Under the pieces are notes generated by a model. That model was not told the origin of the DNA. It saw only the letters and a list, made by a program, of their open reading frames with translations, and searched no databases. Below, in pieces: positions 5,361-15,231 of a DNA stretch of 23,312 nucleotides (within the stretch, counting starts at the first letter, position 1; each line of letters begins with the position of its first letter). A program made the position numbers and the translations under genes. Source of the stretch: a virus. The stretch spans positions 1 through 23,312 of the IMG/VR virus record IMGVR_UViG_3300031963_000950; one strand, written 5' to 3'.

Positions 5361-5558
5361 TCACTCCAACACGCGAATGCTTCGCGCCGTTCGGTCTGAC
5401 TTCGCAATTCTTCCGTCACTTGCAAGCGCCATAAGTTCGCGCTGCACCGTGCCGTGCGACATGTCCAGCCGCGCTACCAGCTCCCTGATCGTTGGCGCGT
5501 AGCCTTTCTCGCGCACAAAGTTTCTGATCTCGCTAATAAGTTCCTGCTGTCTTGTCAT
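5361..5558 (-). CDS. Stand-alone LexA-type winged-helix DNA-binding domain
   Basis: A 65-aa protein that matches the N-terminal DNA-binding domain of LexA along its whole length: KGYAPTIRELVARLDMSHGTVQRELMAL, then the wing GRIAKSDRTARSIRVLE. LexA is about 200 residues and carries a C-terminal Ser/Lys autoprotease that inactivates it after DNA damage; that half is absent here. The recognition helix (SHGTVQ) resembles the Gram-positive LexA type, which binds GAAC-N4-GTTC. The window has three GTAC-N4-GTAC palindromes on early promoters, with the same half-site length and spacing, which are good candidate targets. Without the protease it should not respond to RecA. The ATG overlaps the kinase stop (ATGA) and follows AGGAGG. 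The family is confident; the targets are inferred. Confidence 0.8.
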   Translation of the reverse strand: MTRQQELISEIRNFVREKGYAPTIRELVARLDMSHGTVQRELMALASDGRIAKSDRTARSIRVLE

Positions 5559-6121
5559 AGCTCATCTCCTCCTGTCATCCACTCATGCAATCTTCGGAAT
5601 GTCTGATCGCTGTCAATGTTTGTTGTGTCCAGCGATAGGTCAAACCGAACCTTGTCCCACTCTTGCTCCGTCACATCATTGGCGCCGCTAACCCCTCCAG
5701 CGACACGCCAATCTCTCTTGCGAATGTCTGCCGTTACCTGAACGATCTTGAAGCCGCTCTCTAGCTTACGAAGATAGTCAACCTCGCGAATCAAGCGCAA
5801 GTCATCTACCACCACTGAGCGCCCCATCATCTTGGCTCCCTGGTATTTCTCGCGCCAAAGACCCAGCCAGTAATCCTGGTCTACCTCTCGCAGCGCCTTA
5901 CCGATTCCCTGAAGAAGCTCGCGCCCAGTTGCAATCCAAAGCTTCTCGTTTCGGATCACATCAAACAGCGTTCCCTTCTGCAAGCCTGGGTATCTTTGGC
6001 GTGCAATCTCTTTGACTGCATCCGCGATGCCAATGCGTACATAGCCGCGATGCTCAACAAGATTCATGGCGAGCGTTGTTTTGCCAGACCCTTGCGGTCC
6101 AATGATGGCAATGTCGTTCAT
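5555..6121 (-). CDS. Deoxynucleoside monophosphate kinase
   Basis: A 188-aa P-loop kinase. GPQGSGKTT (residues 8-16) is the Walker A loop that binds ATP. The segment RSVVVDDLRLIREVDYLRKL resembles the conserved region of phage T4-type dNMP kinases, where an Asp pair and Arg face the acceptor nucleotide. These enzymes raise dNMPs to dNDPs to feed phage DNA synthesis in the cytoplasm. Length and motif order are normal for the family. The gene sits between the recombination/replication genes and the LexA-like gene, behind element copy 3. The start is supported by GGGGGAAA upstream. Confidence 0.8.
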   Translation of the reverse strand: MNDIAIIGPQGSGKTTLAMNLVEHRGYVRIGIADAVKEIARQRYPGLQKGTLFDVIRNEKLWIATGRELLQGIGKALREVDQDYWLGLWREKYQGAKMMGRSVVVDDLRLIREVDYLRKLESGFKIVQVTADIRKRDWRVAGGVSGANDVTEQEWDKVRFDLSLDTTNIDSDQTFRRLHEWMTGGDEL

Positions 6122-6151: not shown

Positions 6152-6203
6152 AGGTGTCTAGACATTGGGCGTTACCGTTTCGGCGCTCTCCGTTGATCCT
6201 ACA
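6152..6203 (-). promoter_or_regulatory. Intergenic element, copy 3 (lacks GTTAC box)
   Basis: Minus strand: TGTAGGATCAACG (6203-6191), 30 bases, TAGACACCT (6160-6152). The GTTAC box of the other copies is replaced by unrelated bases, although the AAAATGACCC that follows it is kept. Uniquely, the copy lies inside coding sequence: the nuclease gene reads through the central box and stops at the TAG of the second box. Confidence 0.7.
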
Positions 6204-6760
6204 GGGTCATTTTCTGGGGCTAGACCCCAAAACGACCGAATCGCCGTCTCATCAATGAATTGTCGGACTGGCATCAAACGAGCGGCGTGGAGACGTAGCC
6301 GAACGCCATGACCGTAATCATGTTGCTCAGCTTCGCGCATGAACCTGGATCGGGAGCAGACGCCGCCAACGCGGAACACTCCGTCCACTGGATGACGTCG
6401 GTCTCCCAGCATCTGGACAAGGATCGCGGCATGCGACTTGAACGCAGCTTCGTCATCAAAGATCAGCTGTTCCAAGGTTGACGTCTTGGCGTCCCAGGTA
6501 AGACCGAACGCGGTAAAGTCAGCGCCGCTGTCACCAGCCTGACCGATCTCCCAGTTCAAGACTTCATAGCCAAGTCCCAGTGCCTGTACAGCCGCCATCT
6601 CTCCCAGCCTTCCCATCAAGTCCACAGCCTCTGAGCTGCTGTGTCTGTCATACCACTTATCCGTGACCATATGTTCCGCCTTAAATGCTTGCTTCGCAGC
6701 AGTCCAGTCCAAGGCTTTCTTCAAAGCTTCTGCGGTCATCGGTACGTCAACCCAGTTCAT
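6158..6760 (-). CDS. PD-(D/E)XK superfamily nuclease
   Basis: A 200-aa protein. GRLGEMAAVQAL (Glu), GDSGADFTAF (Asp) and WDAKTS (DxK) are spaced like the catalytic residues of PD-(D/E)XK nucleases, which cleave DNA with divalent metal. It overlaps the upstream replication gene by ATGA. About the last 16 residues are encoded by the conserved intergenic element and end at the TAG of its TAGACACCT box, so this tail is probably not part of the original fold. The role is likely DNA processing in replication or recombination; the exact substrate is unknown. Confidence 0.65.
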   Translation of the reverse strand: MNWVDVPMTAEALKKALDWTAAKQAFKAEHMVTDKWYDRHSSSEAVDLMGRLGEMAAVQALGLGYEVLNWEIGQAGDSGADFTAFGLTWDAKTSTLEQLIFDDEAAFKSHAAILVQMLGDRRHPVDGVFRVGGVCSRSRFMREAEQHDYGHGVRLRLHAARLMPVRQFIDETAIRSFWGLAPENDPVGSTESAETVTPNV

Positions 6761-7239
6761 TTGAGCCCTCGCTTTATAATACTTCCAATAAGCTCTGGCT
6801 TAATATAAGTATTAAGTCTCTTGTCTCTAGTGTCTTGTCTCATGTCTCTAGTCTCTTGTCTCCCGCCGTGACTTGGCGTGACATTGACCGTGACAGAGCC
6901 GTTATCAAAACGCTCTGTTTGCGTGACAGACCGCTCCCGATGGCGCTGCTGTCGGAGGGTAGCCGTCGGATCAATCTGGAACTTCGCCCAGTTATCTACG
7001 ACCAGGCGTCCGCCCTCCTCCTTGATCAAGCCGCAGCTCAAGAGCGCCTTCAGGTGCCGATGCAGCCGCTGCGGGGTCAGCGCCTTCAAATGCTGCACCG
7101 ACGCAAAGCCGCCCTGCGGCTTCTGTCGCTTCGCCATCACCCAGATGGTCATGACCAGGCGGAACTCTGAGTCGTTGAGCACCGCGATTCGCGGGTCTTC
7201 AAGAAAGTCTGTAAAGAGCTTCAGATACTGTCCGCGCAT
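6757..7239 (-). CDS. Winged-helix replication initiator-like protein
   Basis: A 160-aa protein. Residues 1-75 look like the winged-helix domain of phage replisome organisers: FTDFLEDPRIAVLNDSEFRL, LTPQRLHRHLKALLSCGLIKE, GRLVVDNWAKFQ. The C-terminal half is a low-complexity, charged linker (RQETRD and RQDTRD repeats) encoded by tandem heptamers that could be the origin, as iterons lie within the lambda O gene. Such proteins bind the origin and load helicase; no helicase gene is visible in the window. Length is short for the group and there is no obvious helicase-interaction domain. The ATG follows GGAGG and lies behind element copy 4. Confidence 0.65.
   Translation of the reverse strand: MRGQYLKLFTDFLEDPRIAVLNDSEFRLVMTIWVMAKRQKPQGGFASVQHLKALTPQRLHRHLKALLSCGLIKEEGGRLVVDNWAKFQIDPTATLRQQRHRERSVTQTERFDNGSVTVNVTPSHGGRQETRDMRQDTRDKRLNTYIKPELIGSIIKRGLK
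6777..6864. other. Candidate replication origin (tandem heptamers plus AT-rich tract)
   Basis: Seven tandem 7-bp units with consensus GTCTCTW lie at 6816-6864 inside the replication gene. Next to them an AT-rich stretch (6771-6815) carries the 8-bp inverted repeat TAATACTT (6777-6784) and AAGTATTA (6807-6814). A 7-bp period is not set by the codon frame, so the repeat is a DNA-level feature. Iterons beside an AT-rich tract inside an initiator gene is the lambda-type origin layout. Four GTGAC copies just beyond (6868-6927) may belong to it. Confidence 0.5.
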
Positions 7240-9791: not shown

Positions 9792-10036
9792 GCTGACACC
9801 TCCACATTCTTTTCGTCGTAGCGATTCACTGCGCCCTGCATCCAGAATGCAAGAGCGTTGAGGCGCCTGGCATCTTTCCATGCCTGATCGCTTCGCTTAA
9901 GGTCCGCACCCTCCAGGTTGCGCGCAGCATCAAAGAGCATCAACGCGGCGTCGCGGAGATTCTCACTAGCTGTCTCAACCTTATCCCTGTTGCTCTCGTT
10001 GATCTCTGTGTTGAAGCTTGGCTTTCGTCCCGCCAT
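9788..10036 (-). CDS. Hypothetical helical protein (82 aa), first gene of leftward operon
   Basis: Not recognised. AAGGAGG lies just before the ATG. The protein is mostly helical with a long amphipathic stretch (NLRDAALMLFDAARNLEG) and an N-terminal basic part (MAGRKPSF). No metal or catalytic motif. It is the first gene after the promoter, operator and leader hairpin at 10062-10119, so it is probably strongly and early expressed. Confidence 0.65.
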   Translation of the reverse strand: MAGRKPSFNTEINESNRDKVETASENLRDAALMLFDAARNLEGADLKRSDQAWKDARRLNALAFWMQGAVNRYDEKNVEVSA

Positions 10037-10061
10037 TTTGTGTGCCTCCTTTTGCCTCTTG

Positions 10062-10080
10062 GACCAGCTGTCTTCTGGTC
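10062..10080 (-). promoter_or_regulatory. Leader hairpin with AAGACAG loop (leftward early operon 1)
   Basis: Minus strand GACCAG-AAGACAG-CTGGTC, a perfect 6-bp stem. It begins about 3 bases after the predicted start of transcription and ends about ten bases before AAGGAGG. The loop is identical to those at 4877-4895 and 10258-10274 while the stem differs. Confidence 0.75.
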
Positions 10081-10089
10081 TCTAGGGAG

Positions 10090-10119
10090 ACTGTACAGGC
10101 GTACCGCCTGGGCTGTCAA
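10090..10119 (-). promoter_or_regulatory. Leftward early promoter with GTAC-N4-GTAC operator
   Basis: Minus strand: TTGACA (10119-10114), 18 bases, TACAGT (10095-10090). The palindrome GTAC-AGGC-GTAC (10093-10104) overlaps the -10. It faces away from the rightward promoter at 10222, forming a divergent control region. Confidence 0.75.
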
Positions 10120-10160
10120 CCCCTAAACCAGCCTTCTGGCATGAATATTTTTTATCCAGT

Positions 10161-10202
10161 CTGGATTGTAACAATAGCCAGGGAAGCTCCTGGATTGTTA
10201 CA
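10161..10202. repeat. Direct repeat CTGGATTGTWACA between divergent promoters
   Basis: CTGGATTGTAACA (10161-10173) and CTGGATTGTTACA (10190-10202) start 29 bp apart, with a small CCAGG/CCTGG inverted repeat between them. They lie midway between the two divergent early promoters and could bind an activator or repressor. The repeat is certain; the role is inferred. Confidence 0.6.
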
Positions 10203-10221
10203 GCGATTTTTGAAACAGGGC

Positions 10222-10250
10222 TTGACAAGCTCCTGGTACGGGCGTACCTT
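10222..10250 (+). promoter_or_regulatory. Rightward early promoter with GTAC-N4-GTAC operator
   Basis: TTGACA (10222-10227), 17 bases, TACCTT (10245-10250). The palindrome GTAC-GGGC-GTAC (10236-10247) covers the spacer and the first bases of the -10. It drives the only plus-strand genes in the window. Confidence 0.7.
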
Positions 10251-10257
10251 ACTGGTA

Positions 10258-10274
10258 TCGGGAAGACAGCCCGA
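10258..10274 (+). promoter_or_regulatory. Leader hairpin with AAGACAG loop (rightward operon)
   Basis: TCGGG-AAGACAG-CCCGA, a perfect 5-bp stem starting at about +1 of the transcript. Only four bases separate it from AAGGAGG. This is the shortest hairpin-to-ribosome-site distance of the three leaders. Confidence 0.75.
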
Positions 10275-10291
10275 ACAGAAGGAGGCAGAAA

Positions 10292-10555
10292 ATGACAAAG
10301 TTTCAGGAGCTTAAGGGACTGATCAAGACGGGGCGATGCGAGCTGTGCAATGGCTTGACAGACATGTCAGCTGGTAGCCGAAACATTCGCATTGTTGCAT
10401 GCGAGCACAATCTTGCAGATGTGTGCGAAGCACTCCTGGAGGCTGGTGTGTACGGCGCAACAAAGTTTGATGCGTTCCGCAAGAAGACCGCAGCTGAGAT
10501 TCGCGATGGCGCCTGGGAAGGCGGAATGTTTGTGATCGCTAAGGAGGCAATCTAA
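10292..10555 (+). CDS. Hypothetical small protein with Cys motif (87 aa)
   Basis: Not recognised. First gene of the rightward operon, ATG six bases after AAGGAGG. CELCNG near residue 16 plus a later CEH and one more Cys could bind a metal. The rest is helical (LADVCEALLEAG) with a basic patch FRKKTAAEI. The divergent position opposite the other early operon suggests a control or early takeover role. Confidence 0.6.
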   Translation: MTKFQELKGLIKTGRCELCNGLTDMSAGSRNIRIVACEHNLADVCEALLEAGVYGATKFDAFRKKTAAEIRDGAWEGGMFVIAKEAI

Positions 10556-10680
10556 TGCCAAGCAAGAAAGTATGCAAGGGATACAACAGAATTAGCTTCA
10601 AGCCTTGCACGGTCTGGGCTGCAAAGGGAAGCGACTACTGCCGAATTCATGCGCTCCGCATGGCAAAGGAGGCAATGTAA
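10555..10680 (+). CDS. Tiny Cys/His zinc-knuckle-like protein (41 aa)
   Basis: A 41-aa gene joined to both neighbours by TAATG overlaps and preceded by AAGGAGG, which supports expression. Its Cys at 7, 18 and 29 and His at 32 (CKGYN, KPCTV, YCRIH) are spaced like a C3H zinc knuckle, and it is basic. Such C/C/C-x2-H motifs are seen in small phage proteins of unknown role that probably bind nucleic acid. Confidence 0.6.
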   Translation: MPSKKVCKGYNRISFKPCTVWAAKGSDYCRIHALRMAKEAM

Positions 10681-11045
10681 TGAGCTGGCGAGCAAACCTA
10701 ACCGACGCTCAGCGCGAGCTGGTCAGCAGGATGGAAGCTGCCCACAACGCGCGCAGGATTACGACGCGAGATACAGAAAACTGCGTCAACTGCGAAGCCT
10801 GGTGGAACGCGTCGGATGCTCACGGCTACACGGTCTGGTGCGACTGTGCCAACGGTCAGCGGCTAAAGACGTTGTATGCCCAGCATCTTCAGGATCAGCT
10901 GCTGGAGCAACAGCGCCAATCAGCAGCAGCTGCGCGCCTTGCCAAGGCTTGCACGCGCTGCGGCGGCTCTGGCGTGTACGGTCACCACGGCACATGCTTC
11001 CGCTGTAACGGAATCGGGGTTGATCCGAAATATCTTAAGAAATAG
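10680..11045 (+). CDS. DnaJ-type zinc-finger-like protein (121 aa)
   Basis: Function unknown. AAAGGAGG lies upstream of the ATG, which overlaps the previous stop. Cys pairs occur in two places: CVNC with WCDC in the first half, and CTRCGGSG with CFRCNGIG near the end. The latter are CxxCxGxG-like repeats as in the DnaJ zinc-binding domain. A glutamine/alanine-rich helix links the two. With no J domain, it is unlikely to be a full chaperone; a zinc scaffold protein is likelier. Confidence 0.65.
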   Translation: MSWRANLTDAQRELVSRMEAAHNARRITTRDTENCVNCEAWWNASDAHGYTVWCDCANGQRLKTLYAQHLQDQLLEQQRQSAAAARLAKACTRCGGSGVYGHHGTCFRCNGIGVDPKYLKK

Positions 11046-11052
11046 AAATGGC

Positions 11053-11093
11053 GCCCTGGACGCGGTGCGGGAGGCACGCGACGCGTCCAGGGC
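11053..11093. terminator. Long hairpin between convergent operons
   Basis: GCCCTGGACGCG (11053-11064) pairs perfectly with CGCGTCCAGGGC (11082-11093), and the loop can form a further GTGC/GCAC stem. It lies 8 bases past the end of the rightward operon and 15 bases past the end of the leftward late operon. It lacks a T-run on both sides, but position and strength suggest a bidirectional stop or a 3' end-protecting structure. Confidence 0.65.
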
Positions 11094-11107
11094 TGGACTG
11101 GCTCGCC

Positions 11108-13921: not shown

Positions 13922-14092
13922 TCATTCCCTCCATCTCAATGGTCCAGTAATTAGCCAGACGAATGTCAGCGCAAGAAAAAGCGCAGACATTGTTTCCTGT
14001 GTTCCCCCTGGGGGAAGCACGATAACTGCAAAGCCCAGCCCCAAAATGGTCCAGGCTCCACCGATCAGATCTAGAATAATATTCTTTAACAT
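13922..14092 (-). CDS. Small two-helix membrane protein, holin-like (56 aa)
   Basis: A short gene whose ATG overlaps the previous stop (TAATG). Two hydrophobic helices, about residues 8-27 (DLIGGAWTILGLGFAVIVL) and 36-51 (SALFLALTFVWLITG), are linked by PPGGTQE, with a charged end RWRE. Size, topology and place among lysis genes fit a class II holin or antiholin. It would be the second or third holin-like protein of this cassette; which one sets lysis timing cannot be told from sequence. Confidence 0.6.
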   Translation of the reverse strand: MLKNIILDLIGGAWTILGLGFAVIVLPPGGTQETMSALFLALTFVWLITGPLRWRE

Positions 14093-15231
14093 TAGCGGCG
14101 CACCTTTCTGCTACGCGCACCCATCTCGCCGCCTCCAGCGCCACCACCTCCACCGTTGTTGTTGCTTGGCTGTCGCGCAGCGTTTGCCGCCGCTGCTGCA
14201 ACACTTGCAACTTGACTGGAGATAATTGCGACTGCTACGGGTTGCGCTTCTTCACGTTCAGTTTCGTCAAGGTCTTTGCCAAGCTCAGTAATCGCAGCAA
14301 TGTCAGAAATAAAATCTGCTGCGGCTGCAACGGCTGCTCCAGCAACTTCAGCAATCGCTTCAGCTACAGGCGGCAAATCGGGCTGCTCTGGCTCAGGAGT
14401 AGGAATAGGACTGGTATCAGGAGATACGGAAGGAGATGGCGAAGGCGTTTCTGGTGCAGGCGTCTCCGTTGGAGCGGGAGACGGGGCGGGAGAATTCGTG
14501 GGTCCAGGAGTTGGCGTTGGTTCAATGCTCACCTCTGGGCTTGGCGTTGGCTGAGGCGTGGGGTCTGGTGTCAGTTCAGGGGTAGGCGTAGGCTCTGGAG
14601 TTGGCTCAGGGCTAGGAGTAGGCTCTGGGCTAGGCTCCACGGTCGGTTCAGGCGTAGGAGGCTCTGTAGGCGACGGAGACGGCTCCTGGGTCGGATCTGG
14701 CGTAGGAGTCGCGGTTGGCTCAGGAGACGCCGTAGGGGACGGCGTAGGGCTACCTACGACCCAGGTCGTATTGTTGACTTGCAAGAAGCCCGATCCGCAG
14801 CAGGAGTCAGTGCTTAGGACGCGGAATCCAAAGATCCCGCCTGCGGTGACGTAGACGGATTGACTGCCGCTCTGTTGCAGCGGGTTGTACCCAGCCTGGT
14901 CCCAGATCGCTAGATCAATCCAGCTCTCATCAAGAAGCATCTGCGCGCGGTCGTAGAACGCACCGTCAGTAGTCCAATACGCCCAGTCAAAAGATACCGT
15001 CTCGCCAACGGATGAATCTGTTGTTAGTCCCGTCACAGTATTTTGCCACGGGTACCCAGGTCCAGCGTTGTTGCTACCTTCAATCAGGATTGTGCCATCG
15101 CTTAGCGTAATCGTGCCGTTGGAATCAATCTGCTGATCCCACGCATCGGCACTGTCAAGCGCGTAGGCGCTCGCAGCGAACGGCAACAGAGTTGCCAGTG
15201 TCAGCAGGAACGCAAGTGCGCGTTGACTCAC
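14092..15231 (-). CDS. Secreted protein with long Pro/Thr-rich stalk (379 aa)
   Basis: Function unknown. Residues 1-23 form a signal peptide ([19 protein letters not shown]). Residues about 25-160 are a beta-rich globular domain with Trp and a CC pair. Residues 161-288 (bases 14368-14751) are a PT/PE/PS-rich stretch typical of extended wall-spanning stalks. Then come Ala-rich hydrophobic helices ([13 protein letters not shown], then [19 protein letters not shown]) and a Gly-rich, basic tail (GARSRKVRR). The GTG overlaps the upstream stop (GTGA). The layout suggests a protein exported across the membrane, with its head presented through the thick wall. It could take part in lysis, bind sugars or alter the surface of the infected cell. 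No catalytic motif seen. Confidence 0.65.

Follow-up and report, generated by a model that had tools for sequence, protein, structure and literature searches.

The window analysed here is the whole of a virus record of 23,312 bp, and it carries on its minus strand a gene for a predicted winged-helix replication initiator. This gene belongs to a block of recombination and replication genes, in the order YqaJ/RecE-like exonuclease, Rad52/Erf-like annealing protein, initiator, an ORF without family matches and a dNMP kinase. The ORF without matches in Pfam or PHROG (200 aa, 6158-6760) starts on the stop codon of the initiator gene, with an ATGA overlap; in L068 and L072, the initiator gene instead lies directly 5' of an apparent nucleotide kinase gene. 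A protein with a LexA-like DNA-binding domain is encoded close by (5361-5558). The following features were identified in the initiator gene:

6757-7239, minus strand: winged-helix replication initiator gene (160 aa), with the entire element in its linker-coding part (from the ORF, PHROG matches and a structure model)
6867-6927, minus strand: part A, boxes with ACG, putative binding sites of the initiator (from their positions and the boxes of homologues)
6922-6927, 6889-6894, 6877-6882 and 6867-6872, minus strand: GTCACG boxes of part A
6899-6903, minus strand: AACGG box of part A
6814-6862, minus strand: part B, seven tandem heptamers GAGACNN (from repeat finding, DNA-level constraint in relatives and ranking for periods 6-9)
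6775-6814, no strand: part C, AT-rich, candidate DNA unwinding element (from nearest-neighbour energy)
6777-6793 and 6798-6814, within part C: inverted repeat, not conserved
6760-6801, minus strand: short conserved C-terminal peptide KPELIGSIIKRGLK (from translations and the homologue alignment)

On the coding strand, part A lies just upstream of the array and part C just downstream of it, an order read directly from the sequence. Array and boxes, direct repeats that could serve as initiator sites, both lie inside the reading frame for the replication initiator, whose own PHROG matches are weak, and next to an AT-rich element defined by a stability minimum.

The gene is replication-like, as the initial annotation had proposed. 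The protein matches phrog_186 ('DnaD-like helicase loader', E = 2.4e-5) and also phrog_270, and its match to Phage_rep_org_N falls under Pfam's cut-off. Its relatives match phrog_3926 ('replication initiation protein'), with a best E of 2.5e-9 and matches in 9 out of 18 members. A CLP1_P match in Pfam, below the cut-off and in a single member, was judged spurious. In the AlphaFold2 model, of low confidence, residues 23-89 form helices and a beta hairpin like those of a winged helix, whereas most of the linker (residues 106-145) has a pLDDT below 50. When this low-confidence model was compared with the PDB by Foldseek, the matches were weak, all to generic winged-helix regulators and all above E = 0.001. 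No homology to A118 gp49 emerged from a profile comparison, and no C-terminal DnaD-like domain was matched; the protein ends about 20 residues past the array and is best read as a minimal initiator without such a domain. The conserved C-terminal peptide, [IV]GxI[IL]xxG-like in relatives, is a possible contact for a helicase or loader. Neither the window protein nor a homologue of the 6-bp class (see below) had a tblastn match among named phages, Rfam gave nothing, and a scan of genome_contigs gave a single short weak match. Searches for helicase and loader genes in ten family records, all of them fragments, yielded nothing for PF03796 and, for PF01695, only P-loop noise.

The initial annotation had described seven tandem heptamers within the gene, out of phase with the codons, and both observations hold. 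The coding strand, read from 6862 to 6814, gives the units GAGACaa, GAGACta, GAGACat, GAGACaa, GACACta, GAGACaa and GAGACtt; the GAGACNN of one strand is NNGTCTC on the other. Tandem Repeats Finder reports 6816-6862 with a period of 7 and 6.7 copies. GAGACNNGAGAC occurs four times in the window, every copy in the array, with 0.04 expected and none of 100 shuffles reaching four. The gene scores 20 for periods 6-9, the maximum in 2000 codon shuffles being 13, and in the near-identical locus L062 no other ORF scores above 9. The heptamers are out of step with the codons, so that 3 x 7 bp encode a 7-residue repeat (RQETRDM/RQDTRDK). As a point of likeness to the DnaA-trio/DRE elements of B. subtilis (see below), TnnT steps occur nine times on one strand of the array and never on the other, but the motif is so loose that this count is no test.

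We then compared the array among homologues. The close clade comprises six IMG/VR relatives, 80-100% identical, with five distinct sequences including the window's own. Throughout this clade the array keeps its position and its seven units without any indel, also among relatives at 80-89% protein identity. Across the five distinct sequences, variation affects 2 of the 35 sites in the GAGAC core and 7 of the 14 in the 2-nt spacers (Fisher P = 0.001). Of the third codon positions, 43 of 88 vary in the N-terminal domain, but 1 of 12 in the core (P = 0.011). In the wider family, we found 36 loci representing 30 distinct genes, and a wider second profile scan gave the same 36 loci. A GA-rich array is present at the equivalent spot in all 30 distinct homologues. 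Its period is 7 (GAGACNN; peptide type ETRDKRQE) in the window clade, L068 and L069, 8 (GAGACTAA; peptide type ETKRLRDIETKR) in L070, L071 and L073, and 6 (GAGANA; peptide type EREKEKE) in the remaining homologues. When all ORFs were scored for periods 6-9, the initiator gene ranked first in 28 of 30 loci; initiators averaged 21.4, and the 373 remaining ORFs, many of which come from related loci, averaged 6.5. Scanning for arrays of the 6-bp pattern recovered ten contigs of the family and one plain GA microsatellite (L143).

The repeats could be a by-product of purine-rich codons, if the protein needed a charged, flexible linker of E, K, R and D; in the window family, the encoded linker does carry charged residues, and it is predicted to be disordered. 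However, codon choice within the array is extreme. In the 6-bp class, GAG outnumbers GAA 112 to 0, AAA and AAG stand at 64:4 in the array vs. 40:106 in the N-terminal domain, and isoleucine is always ATA within the array vs. 5 of 82. Moreover, the middle base of the ANA codon can be any of the four (K, R, I or T). A free residue-deciding base between fixed outer bases is the opposite of protein constraint, and the third positions of the core are nearly fixed. We therefore hold this protein-level explanation to be very unlikely. The array appears to be constrained as DNA: the motif stays, and the peptide and the period change. The comparison of homologues that the initial annotation had proposed thus gave the opposite of a conserved protein sequence devoid of DNA repeats.

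To see where else such arrays occur, we scanned IMG/VR for four GAGACNN units and obtained 53 stretches, many of them ordinary minisatellites. GAGACNN minisatellites are widespread outside initiator genes (L011, L019, L040 and others), some contigs having several; one lies inside a DnaG-type primase gene (L012, 3885-6209) and another towards the 3' end of the gene for a terminase large subunit (L056, 3475-4782). Arrays of this kind are also found in the linkers of other replication proteins, in L009 (phrog_1408, E 1e-18) and L013 (phrog_16167, E 6e-29). In L035 (primosomal protein, DUF1376) and L060 (weak DUF1376 match), the arrays have the opposite orientation and hence encode other residues, which is a further point against the need for a charged linker. 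The occurrence of GAGACNN minisatellites in unrelated contigs and genes speaks for a functionless repeat, made by slippage and tolerated in the linker. Such neutrality is nevertheless highly improbable for the initiator genes, given a copy number fixed without indels at 80-89% protein identity, spacers that diverge around a conserved core, and an array present in 30 of 30 homologues and always beside a stability minimum.

This minimum corresponds to part C. By nearest-neighbour energy, no 40-bp stretch of the 23.3-kb window is less stable than 6775-6814 (-42.7 vs. a mean of -57.6), in agreement with the AT-rich stretch initially annotated beside the array. In the homologous loci, 30 in number and 4-12.5 kb long, the array spot ranks first for low stability in 19 and second to fourth in 11. 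The inverted repeat noted in this stretch is present in the window, with 14 of 17 pairs, but it fails as a conserved element, with 11 of 17 pairs in L063 and 8 of 17 in L064-L066. GC skew, suggested as a check of the origin, was uninformative: it shows no turn at the array and so lends no support to an origin there. Elsewhere in the window, GC and AT skew are both reversed at 10001-11100, where plus-strand ORFs (10292-10555 and 10605-11045) lie between minus-strand blocks. At 14549-14749, G-rich tandem repeats with periods of 30, 18 and 48 are found in a minus-strand gene (14092-15231) encoding a long Pro/Thr/Glu/Ser repeat.

In part A of the window clade, the ACG boxes are irregular and low-scoring, and they are less certain here. 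In many relatives, ACG boxes recur with a period of about 11 bp (10-12 bp, about one helical turn); at the position of part A, L084 carries three copies of GCAACGGTTAT and L091 three of GAAACGCAAAT, both at an 11-bp period. We also surveyed 13 named phage initiators, including those of Listeria A118, several Staphylococcus and Bacillus phages, and Shewanella and Vibrio phages; ten of these, A118 gp49 itself and those retrieved through their similarity to it, are not independent. The initiator gene is first in its own locus in 10 of 13 cases for periods 6-9 and in 10 of 13 for periods 10-14. Most show the same order, with 11-12-bp boxes, then a 6-9-bp array, then the C-terminal domain. The boxes read ACATCAAAACA in Staphylococcus 713, ACAACAAATCA in SA345 and ACAACGAAAGGG in A118, and the short arrays read AATAATGAT at 9 bp in most and GAATTAAA at 8 bp in A118. 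For most of these initiators, 0-1 of 300 codon shuffles reach the observed score; the short arrays are weak in A403 (11/300) and in lambda, where a AAAAGAAAAAAGAAAA run is reached by 14/300. SA345 lacks the short array, A403 has no significant boxes, and in Pookie the two signals overlap. TP901-1 Rep has neither repeat type, and the Andrew initiator has 11-bp boxes with no short array after them; in this Arthrobacter phage (gp47; L129, 8718-9497), GAACCGTCCTT is an exact 11-bp repeat present three times in the linker. The phage replication module review of Weigel and Seitz (2006) may already cover parts of this layout.

The shared layout also bears on a regulatory role, for instance an operator by which the initiator gene would be autoregulated and which would not be an origin. 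Initiators often autoregulate, and the LexA-like DNA-binding-domain protein is encoded close by. The repeats are located near the 3' end of the gene, however, distant from its start, and an origin better fits both the melting minimum and the layout common to known initiators. We consider an operator to have very little probability.

A stronger alternative is that, in line with the initial annotation, the heptamers themselves are the duplex binding sites of the initiator (iterons), and that the upstream boxes are incidental. No repeat in the window clade is more regular than the array, with its constant seven units, and the upstream boxes of this clade are weak. On the other hand, a period of 6-8 bp would be short for winged-helix domains placed side by side on duplex DNA, the period differs among relatives sharing the same domain, and helically phased boxes lie upstream in most relatives and named phages. 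The short units and the lineage-variable period thus argue against ordinary iterons, an interpretation that we find rather unlikely. Its probability overlaps with that given to the main explanation below, both being origin readings. The ACG boxes look more like initiator boxes than the heptamers do, and the heptamers, which adjoin the melting region, are probably an element for opening or for action on single strands.

Origins within initiator genes are known. In lambda, initiator-bound direct repeats and an AT-rich unwinding element lie in the initiator gene (PMC7466680, PMC5043065), and oriL of SPP1, in gene 38, likewise has direct repeats and an AT-rich DUE (PMC6316719). As in the window, lambda O has its repeats followed by an AT-rich stretch in mid-gene, between the DNA-binding and C-terminal parts (PMC7466680; L140). 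Lambda differs in having four 18-bp iterons and a short array that is weak, the two initiators are at most possibly related, and no P-like loader was found in the fragment records of the window family. By eye, lambda O AAAGACACTATTACAAAA (L140, about 2125-2145), which follows the iterons, and AAAGACACTCTTACTAAA of L077 (about 5828-5845), which ends the array, agree at 16 of 18 bases; they encode KDTITK and KDTLTK at an equivalent place in otherwise unrelated initiator genes. SPP1, like the window, has its own annealing protein and exonuclease (PMC6316719). Besides oriL, however, it possesses a second origin, together with a loader and a DnaB-type helicase; the likeness is drawn from its published description. 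In Listeria A118 gp49, Staphylococcus 713 and Bacillus 279BB001, the linker region contains boxes of 11-12 bp and, after them, an array with units of 6-9 bp. These DnaD-like initiators measure 220-310 aa with a C-terminal domain, whereas the window protein has 160 aa and ends after the array; arrays of the A118 gp49 type are AT-rich with a period of 9 or 8, that of the window GA-rich with a period of 7. Finally, the DnaA-trio and DnaD recognition element (DRE) of B. subtilis oriC are short single-strand elements with flexible spacing beside duplex boxes, an example of how such elements can serve in the way proposed here for part B (PMC10201434). Their likeness to the window is in layout alone, with neither DnaA boxes nor a DnaD domain involved.

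Taken together, this freshwater phage appears to carry its replication start site inside its own initiator gene. We consider it probable, from sequence comparison, that 6775-6927 is a replication origin in the part of the gene coding for the disordered linker, of the lambda O/SPP1 gene-38 kind as the best reading, and that it works through parts A, B and C as set out below. This is favoured by a motif kept despite changes of residues and period, the ranking in 28 of 30 loci, the melting minimum at the same spot, the order of parts common to known initiators, the GAGACNN arrays in other replication linkers, and the lambda and SPP1 precedents. It is weakened by the irregular part A of the window clade, the GC skew without a turn, the lack of a helicase or loader in the fragment records, and the TP901-1 Rep and Andrew exceptions. 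The lambda-O-like origin of the initial annotation is therefore well supported by comparison in its location, and less so in its details: the heptamers probably do not correspond to the lambda iterons, since the ACG boxes, at about 10-12 bp and just upstream, look more like the sites of the initiator.

For origin activity, we infer binding, opening and helicase loading in four steps. The winged-helix domain would bind the ACG boxes of part A as duplex DNA. The complex so formed would strain the adjoining DNA, and the AT-rich part C and the GA array of part B would open. The opened array would then offer a repeated, strand-specific sequence, which the initiator, a loader or the helicase might grip. 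Lastly, the host helicase would be loaded, perhaps via the conserved C-terminal peptide.

More tentatively, part B may represent a kind of element that differs from iterons, is met again in many phage initiators and acts on opened single-stranded DNA. By analogy, it would be a DnaA-trio/DRE-like element with a 6-9-bp tandem register, fixed within a lineage and changing between lineages, placed between the initiator boxes and the gene part for the C-terminal end. We regard this generalization as conceivable rather than likely. If true, it would set apart two repeat types easily lumped together as iterons, and it would provide a sequence-only rule for finding origins in uncultivated phages: in the linker of a winged-helix initiator, seek 11-12-bp boxes and then a 6-9-bp array. 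The lineage-specific period of the array (6, 7, 8 or 9 bp) would also make its reader directly testable.
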